Source of the DNA: Mesorhizobium sp.
Lineage (GTDB): Bacteria > Pseudomonadota > Alphaproteobacteria > Rhizobiales > Rhizobiaceae
Length of the DNA: 64,000 nucleotides
NCBI RefSeq assembly: GCF_024710845.1
Contig: NZ_JANJTZ010000054.1
Location: forward strand, 18,570-82,569
Direction: 5' to 3'
A program made the translations under genes and the position numbers. Below, in pieces: positions 12,568 through 13,876 of this stretch; position 1 is the stretch's first letter; every line of letters starts with the position of its first letter. Under the pieces are notes generated by a model. That model searched no databases. It was not told where the DNA came from and saw only the letters and a program-made list of their open reading frames with translations.

Positions 12568-12720
12568 GTCGGATCTGGTCCCCGATGGCGGTTCGCGTCA
12601 CTGATGCGAAGCGGTGGGGGAAAGGTCGCCGAAAAACCGAGCCGGAACAAGGGACGGTTGACGCCGCTTCCTTCTTCTCGCCGGAGCAAGGCGCTACGTC
12701 CACGAGGCCACCCGCACGCC

Positions 12721-12897
12721 GTCATCCTCGGGCTGGCCCTTCAGGCGTTCGATTGGCTTCGCGAGGTCCACTGGACCTTGCAATTCGCCCGATGGGCGAA
12801 CCGCCATCTCACCCCGAGGATCTGCCGGCGTTGATGCGATGGGCGGTTCAGATACGGACGAGCGCAGGTAGATCCTCGGGTCAAGCCCGAGGATGAC
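12721..12897. repeat. Intergenic element bounded by 14-bp perfect terminal inverted repeats GTCATCCTCGGGCT...AGCCCGAGGATGAC
   Basis: Direct reading: left arm 12721-12734, right arm 12884-12897. Confidence 0.7.
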
Positions 12898-12925
12898 GCC
12901 GCGCGTGGGATGGACCGTCGGCTTC

Positions 12926-13792
12926 TCACGACGTGTCGCGCCTCGCCTCCCAGGCGAAATAGTGAAGGTCGCGCAGCACGTCGTCGACCGCGTGTTCTGC
13001 GCGTGGCGAGCCGGGGCAGTGGAGGCCATAGGCGCGGCCGGGACGCAACGGCGAGAGGCGGCCGGCGCGGCCGGTCTTGCGCAGGGCCGTGCAGCGGGCC
13101 TGCCAGCGGGCGAGGCGCATCGCCTGGCGCGGCAGGTCGCCGAGCGCCCGGCTCAAGGCTTCGAGACGCAGGCGAAGGTATCCGGCATCGATCGGATCGT
13201 TGGGCGAGGGATCGTGCCTGGGCGCGATCGCGAAGAGCGGCGTCCAGCCGGGAATGGAGATTCGCGGCACGCCGGAGGTGCGGATGTGGAACGGCGGCGC
13301 GTCCGGATCGGGCAGCGGGTCGAGGAGAGGGAACGAGAGTTTGCGTTGGGCCGTCGCTTCGACAGACGCTTCCGTCTCGGCGGCGGTGCCGAGCGCAAGG
13401 CCGAGGCCCGGGACAACGATGGGGACGTGCGTGACCAGCGGGCCGCGGTTAGGCCGGAGCGGCGGTAGCGCAGGCTTCGCCGCCACCATGTCGCGGCCGA
13501 CGACGACGATCAGCCGTCGCACGGCAGCTTCCGCCGCGCGCAGCAGGCGGTAGACGGCGCGGTGGACGCGGCGGGGGAGCGTCGGGCTCGCCAGATCCCC
13601 CTCACCAGGTCCGGCTAACGCCTCGGCTTTGCCTCGGCGAGCCGAACCATCCTCTCCCACAAGGGGCGAGGAAAAGGCGAGCCCGGCCATGATGCACAGC
13701 GTGGTGATGATGGGGCCGAGCAGCCGGACATTGCGCTCGATCACAAGATCCCAGTCGATGCCTCCGTCACTCACCTCATCCCAACTGCTCAC
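12926..13792 (-). CDS. Hypothetical protein, interrupted in frame by a palindromic repeat element
   Basis: 288-aa ORF (MSSWDEVSDGGIDWDLVIERNVRLLGPIITTLCIMAGL...). Its atypical SSPLVGEDGSARRGKAEALAGPGEGDLASP segment corresponds to the repeat at 13584-13684. Confidence 0.6.
   Translation of the reverse strand: MSSWDEVSDGGIDWDLVIERNVRLLGPIITTLCIMAGLAFSSPLVGEDGSARRGKAEALAGPGEGDLASPTLPRRVHRAVYRLLRAAEAAVRRLIVVVGRDMVAAKPALPPLRPNRGPLVTHVPIVVPGLGLALGTAAETEASVEATAQRKLSFPLLDPLPDPDAPPFHIRTSGVPRISIPGWTPLFAIAPRHDPSPNDPIDAGYLRLRLEALSRALGDLPRQAMRLARWQARCTALRKTGRAGRLSPLRPGRAYGLHCPGSPRAEHAVDDVLRDLHYFAWEARRDTS
13584..13684. repeat. Palindromic repeat unit embedded in a CDS
   Basis: Ends GGGCTCGCC (13584-13592) / GGCGAGCCC (13676-13684). 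Internal imperfect hairpin GGTCCGGCTAACGCC (13608-13622) / GGCGAGCCGAACC (13636-13648). Confidence 0.65.
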
Positions 13793-13876
13793 CTGCGCCT
13801 CCTTTCAGCGCGGACAGTGTGGTGGAGAGGCGCAAGGAGGTGGATAGATCTTTTCGCTGCGGGACGATCGGAAGCT

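Follow-up and report, generated by a model that had tools for sequence, protein, structure and literature searches.

A RIME-like palindromic repeat lying in frame within protein-coding genes of Mesorhizobium

Introduction

Reports of palindromic repeats that lie in frame within genes come, to our knowledge, chiefly from Rickettsia, along with a few other bacteria, and are rare for free-living ones. Copies positioned in frame in genes have been reported for the Rickettsia palindromic elements (RPEs), the Wolbachia repeats, ERIC, and the 107-bp Correia elements (PMC2229807, PMC10969869, and PMC3733652). The Rhizobium-specific intergenic mosaic elements (RIMEs), like comparable repeats of rhizobia, are described as intergenic (Osteras et al. 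1995, cited in PMC2573895). A literature search that covered few subscription papers found no report of in-frame RIME-like repeats in rhizobia.

Here, we analyze a repeat in a 64,000-nt stretch of Mesorhizobium sp. DNA (contig NZ_JANJTZ010000054.1, positions 18,570 to 82,569; hereafter, the window, designated contig C44 of genome G000). The original prediction held that a palindromic repeat had been inserted into a gene of this window without breaking its frame, in parallel to RPEs.

Results

The gene is located where it had been predicted, at 12926–13792 on the minus strand. It encodes 288 amino acids from a GTG start, upstream of which a ribosome-binding site, AAAGGAGG (13798–13805, minus strand), can be read directly and is kept in paralogues. 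Gene calls here and below are based on open reading frames (ORFs), homology, and codon usage. The protein has no assigned function, and Pfam and NCBIfam searches with it returned no matches. Its paralogues form a dispersed multi-copy family with five close loci in the same genome (the window, C34, C42, C52, and C6) and one more distant locus on C40. Homology between the loci spans ~12712 to 13848 (to 14034 for C6), and the gene is therefore carried in a dispersed unit of slightly more than 1 kb. Two of the loci are syntenic with loci of a congener, G006. The window locus, which adjoins an ABC transporter gene, corresponds to G006:C25, and the C34 locus, which adjoins a gene read as aspartate-semialdehyde dehydrogenase, corresponds to G006:C12. 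The region downstream of the gene (12712–12925), which is common to the paralogous loci, contains further inverted repeats of the CCCGAGGATC type, with arms at 12813–12830/12863–12880 and 12724–12735/12810–12821. Members of this orphan family (the window gene and L059, L060, L061, and L062) are about 280 amino acids long, share a conserved C-terminal DTS, and occur as single genes at unrelated sites, with several per genome in several genera.

The repeat shared among copies runs from TCCTCGCC to GGTGAGGGG. In the window, this repeat, which we refer to as element A, is a 75-bp palindrome at 13598–13672 (minus strand; covariance model score of 99.5 bits) that is read in frame as SSPLVGEDGSARRGKAEALAGPGEG. 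It thus lies inside the segment 13584–13684 that had been proposed but is shorter than that segment. The proposed peptide was likewise too long: the repeat translates as the 25 residues of SSPLVGEDGSARRGKAEALAGPGEG, while the trailing DLASP belongs to the flank. All parts of the element are given on the minus strand. A terminal stem (13599–13672) is formed by pairing of 13665–13672 with 13599–13606 and carries the near-invariant ends TCCTCGCC and GGTGAGGG; it is followed by a small side hairpin, CCTT..GAGG (13651–13664), and a central variable stem-loop (13608–13648), in which ten pairs are altered on both sides among copies. The inverted outer ends originally taken to bound the segment, GGGCTCGCC (13676–13684) and GGCGAGCCC (13584–13592), do exist, but they lie outside the element and as a pair are private to the window copy; the C52 copy has the GGCGAGCCC arm without its partner. 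We therefore reject them as element ends and regard them as a local extension or a chance occurrence.

The palindromic character of the segment is clear. Folding energies are −65.1 kcal/mol for the 101-nt segment (z = −5.0) and −43.2 for the 75-nt core (13598–13672) alone (z = −4.1), and in neither case did any of 200 shuffled sequences fold as well. In a covariance model built from nine copies, 95% of cells were paired and ten pairs were changed on both sides; none of 500 shuffles matched either value. Such covariation shows either that the element depends on its structure or that mutation restores pairing; importance for the host gene does not follow from it. The forward frame SSPLxGEDG...GEG is free of stops in every 72- or 75-nt copy, as is at least one reverse frame. 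AEALAGPGEGDLASPTLPR is a predicted tryptic peptide out of the insert. An Rfam search with the element matched no family.

Repeated in-frame insertions are found in a variable linker of the host protein (13577–13688, minus strand) that joins an N-terminal helix (residues about 14 to 41) to the TLPRRVHRAV helix. A shallow structure model (mean pLDDT of 42.8) has a helix at residues 14 to 41, a coil at 41 to 70, and a helix at 74 to 104, and this order tentatively suggests that the insert sits in a flexible linker. A single element A is present in the linkers of the window gene, G006a, G006b, and G005a. The linkers of C34 and C42 contain the opening 16 nt of A, a different repeat named B (which has GAGCGCCCGGAGCCATAGCGGAGGGCCGGG), and one complete A; in C52, element A is split by B. 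Repeat B has additional copies elsewhere in the same genome. The linkers of three G004 paralogues carry another insert, located between GGACAGTTTACTTT and AAAGTAAACTGTCC. This G004 insert (L013, L022, and L030) contains nested hairpins. Ten distinct linker lengths were recorded, every one of them a multiple of three.

Alignment with relatives, a check named in the original prediction, revealed that the segment is not universal in the family. In C6, A is reduced to its 3′ end, AGCCGAACCTGGTGAGGGG; G002a, which is orthologous to G005a, retains just the final 13 nt of A, joined to the 3′ half of B; and the distant relatives G034 and G036 have a short linker with none of these repeats. C6 was considered as a clean empty site and rejected, since it retains AGCCGAACCTGGTGAGGGG; it is therefore a deletion derivative. 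In most pairs, the inserts have diverged less than the genes that carry them (3 of 75 positions versus 21% between the window gene and G005a; 1 of 75 versus 16% between C34 and C42). A single old insertion would therefore require gene conversion or constraint, the other possibility being separate entries of the element. The low divergence may reflect gene conversion, constraint, or separate insertions of recent date.

This pattern bears on the idea that the hairpin is functional in mRNA or DNA, through pausing, mRNA stability, or recombination between paralogues, and has been retained beyond simple tolerance. The low divergence of the inserts would fit such a function, as would the paired stem changes and a double change in C52 (GGTTCGGCT/AGCCGAACC versus GGTCCGGCT/AGCCGGACC in the others). 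However, the same pattern is explained by gene conversion, by a recent insertion, or by mutation that corrects palindromes, and in C6 and G002a only a remnant of the element is left while the genes are intact. We consider a function of this kind distinctly unlikely.

A similarity search of the same genome for the repeat gave 13 matches at E ≤ 1e-3. When 41 genomes were searched with the covariance model, full-length copies were found, among the matches listed, at other sites and in several Rhizobiaceae genera. Together with selected stretches, the model yielded at least seven full copies plus fragments in the genome of the window, again among the matches listed. The full copies lie in the orphan genes of C34, C42, and the window (one each), in a methyltransferase gene (two), at the end of a DUF5131 gene (one), and past a gene read as uvrA. 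The last, located 3 nt after the uvrA stop codon, is the sole intergenic copy among the at least seven listed. The expectation that the segment belongs to a common intergenic repeat thus needs to be narrowed. More numerous intergenic relatives do exist, but as other subtypes or in other genera, whereas the subtype found here is low-copy (at least seven full copies), with all but one of those listed located inside genes or at a gene 3′ end. The near-invariant ends, the covarying center, and the presence of copies in several Rhizobiaceae genera are RIME-type traits.

Copies in coding sequence measure 51, 72, or 75 nt, and those outside genes mostly 52, 53, 73, 74, 76, or 77 nt; copies outside named proteins were classed by codon-usage score and ORF structure rather than by annotation. 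The difference (Fisher’s exact P = 4e-5) is indicative only, since non-coding copies are mutually related and the P value is therefore too optimistic.

The same palindromic repeat is present at several unrelated genomic sites and in frame in unrelated genes: those of the orphan family, a C5-cytosine methyltransferase, a DUF5131 protein (at its C terminus), and a GNAT acetyltransferase of G004. The methyltransferase (PF00145; L066:4555-6858, G000:C38, minus strand) contains two inverted copies of A, both in frame and together ~60 residues long, between HIGLA and EPVIMNG. The sole comparable homologue found, in G031, has a HIGIAEPIVLS module without the insert. In the DUF5131 protein (PF07505), also encoded on C38, the domain is complete to residue 453 of 477, and the C-terminal SSPLEGEDGKARQAGGEPLAAPGEG is encoded by A, with a TGA directly after it; relatives in other genera extend no more than a few residues past the domain. 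The two genes are 19 kb apart and possibly belong to one mobile region.

The GNAT acetyltransferase of G004 (L183:2293-2967, plus strand; G004:C1:3102586-3103266) carries an inverted pair of A-related elements, 129 nt in frame, in a loop between GTVRLWDV and RALLLGPLAV. The same loop is short or empty in the genome of the window, in G002, in G005, and in further genera. In G006, the GNAT gene (L197; G006:C22:311941-312555) contains a different repeat-like insert of 63 nt at this loop. Another palindrome, CTGCCCTGCCGGGCATCTCCCCCACACGGGGGGAGAT, is present upstream of RALLLGPLAV in G003 at a contig end (L201:1-160, G003:C316); judged from its position, it may be the third insertion into this loop of GNAT, the gene being cut by the contig end. 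The inserts add about 25 to 60 amino acids and are located in flexible loops or at the protein end. Homologues without an insert are thus available both for GNAT (the empty loops) and for the orphan family (the short linkers of G034 and G036).

These data can be used to weigh an alternative according to which the segment is an ancestral functional linker domain whose resemblance to a repeat is secondary. A similar 25-aa segment is indeed kept by six family members in three genomes and is mostly better conserved than the remaining gene. However, the same DNA is found in unrelated genes and intergenically, some paralogues and orthologues have remnants or other repeats only, distant relatives are devoid of the segment, and changes between independent copies track base pairing. 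An ancestral domain is therefore very improbable.

The coding status of the host gene was assessed using ~210 codons downstream of the insert. In this core, dN/dS is 0.23 to 0.43 for pairs of paralogues and orthologues; judged by these ratios, the family is under purifying selection, and the ORF at 12926–13792 is therefore very probably translated. That the protein is produced we infer from the same ratios. Homologues of the host protein in other genera are ~40% identical, and their frames are mostly intact. The absence of a known family and the multi-copy, dispersed distribution might suggest that the ORF is not a genuine gene or that the copies with inserts are decaying pseudogenes read through by accident, but this is hardly credible given the dN/dS values, indels that are all in frame, a conserved ribosome-binding site, the largely open frames of relatives in other genera, and GNAT, methyltransferase, and DUF5131 hosts that belong to known protein families.

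Discussion

The reading that we favor, and hold with considerable confidence, is that element A is a RIME-like hairpin repeat, probably non-autonomous, that has inserted into coding sequence and is translated. The parallel to RPEs drawn in the original prediction holds up: copies are independent, related genes lack the repeat or contain other repeats, the host gene evolves as a coding sequence, and the frame is kept in all length changes.

Neutral tolerance, that is, insertion followed by selection, is the best-supported account of how this state arose. Element A would land in a gene with a stop-free frame available in both directions, and insertions of a multiple of three in a linker, a surface loop, or a C terminus would therefore be tolerated, while out-of-frame or badly placed insertions would be purged by selection. 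The effect on the host protein would be neutral or mild. The orphan-family linker most likely received A in an ancestor of the genus; later, other repeats may have joined it, and parts may have been deleted, exchanged, or converted among paralogues, with the frame always kept.

Movement of A would presumably depend on an enzyme acting in trans. Among transposases, the Y1 family includes enzymes linked to REP elements. No Y1 (IS200-type) transposase (PF01797) was found in the genome of the window, and one was found in G004; mobilization of A by a RAYT was accordingly rejected for the genome of the window. No target-site duplication was seen at the insertions.

A broader proposal is that certain loops in this Mesorhizobium-like genus are recurrent landing sites for unrelated palindromic families and that the repeats, shaped for translatability, keep supplying free-living rhizobia with new protein segments. 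The proposal draws on the three kinds of insert at the orphan linker and on the different repeats at the GNAT loop in G004, G006, and G003 (the last running to the contig end). We put it forward as a speculation that is more likely wrong than right.

The interest of the case lies in the free-living host, in the clean empty-site comparison available for GNAT, and in the fact that different repeats have repeatedly occupied the same loops. Several rhizobial protein families, together with empty sites in close relatives, make up a tractable, non-pathogenic system in which tolerance of inserted repeats can be set against the origin of new protein parts. For annotation, the results are a caution: a short segment of a rhizobial protein can be genuine even when it derives from a repeat.

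The phenomenon itself is already known from RPEs, Wolbachia repeats, ERIC, and Correia elements; what is new here is its occurrence with RIME-like repeats and in a free-living lineage. Target-site duplications and MITE-type ends, which Delihas (2007, PMC2229807) describes for ERIC/RU-1 and for the 107-bp Correia/NEMIS elements, were not seen for A, and those elements occur in other hosts. The Wolbachia repeats (2005, cited in PMC2229807) resemble A, as far as their description there goes, in being in-frame palindromic repeats of an alphaproteobacterium, but Wolbachia is an obligate intracellular organism, unlike the host of A. Compared by description (Osteras et al. 1995, cited in PMC2573895), RIMEs and A both occur in Rhizobiaceae and have a structured, mosaic build in which the ends are conserved and the centers vary; RIMEs, however, are intergenic, whereas A lies in coding sequence, with one intergenic copy among the at least seven full copies listed. 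RPEs (Ogata et al. 2000, 2002, as described in PMC2229807 and PMC10969869) share with A a palindromic structure, in-frame positions in unrelated genes, an open frame, and hosts that are apparently functional. By the same descriptions, A is shorter (72 to 77 bp versus about 100 to 150 bp for RPEs), has far fewer copies so far, resides in GC-rich, free-living Rhizobiaceae, and has intergenic relatives that are RIME-like.
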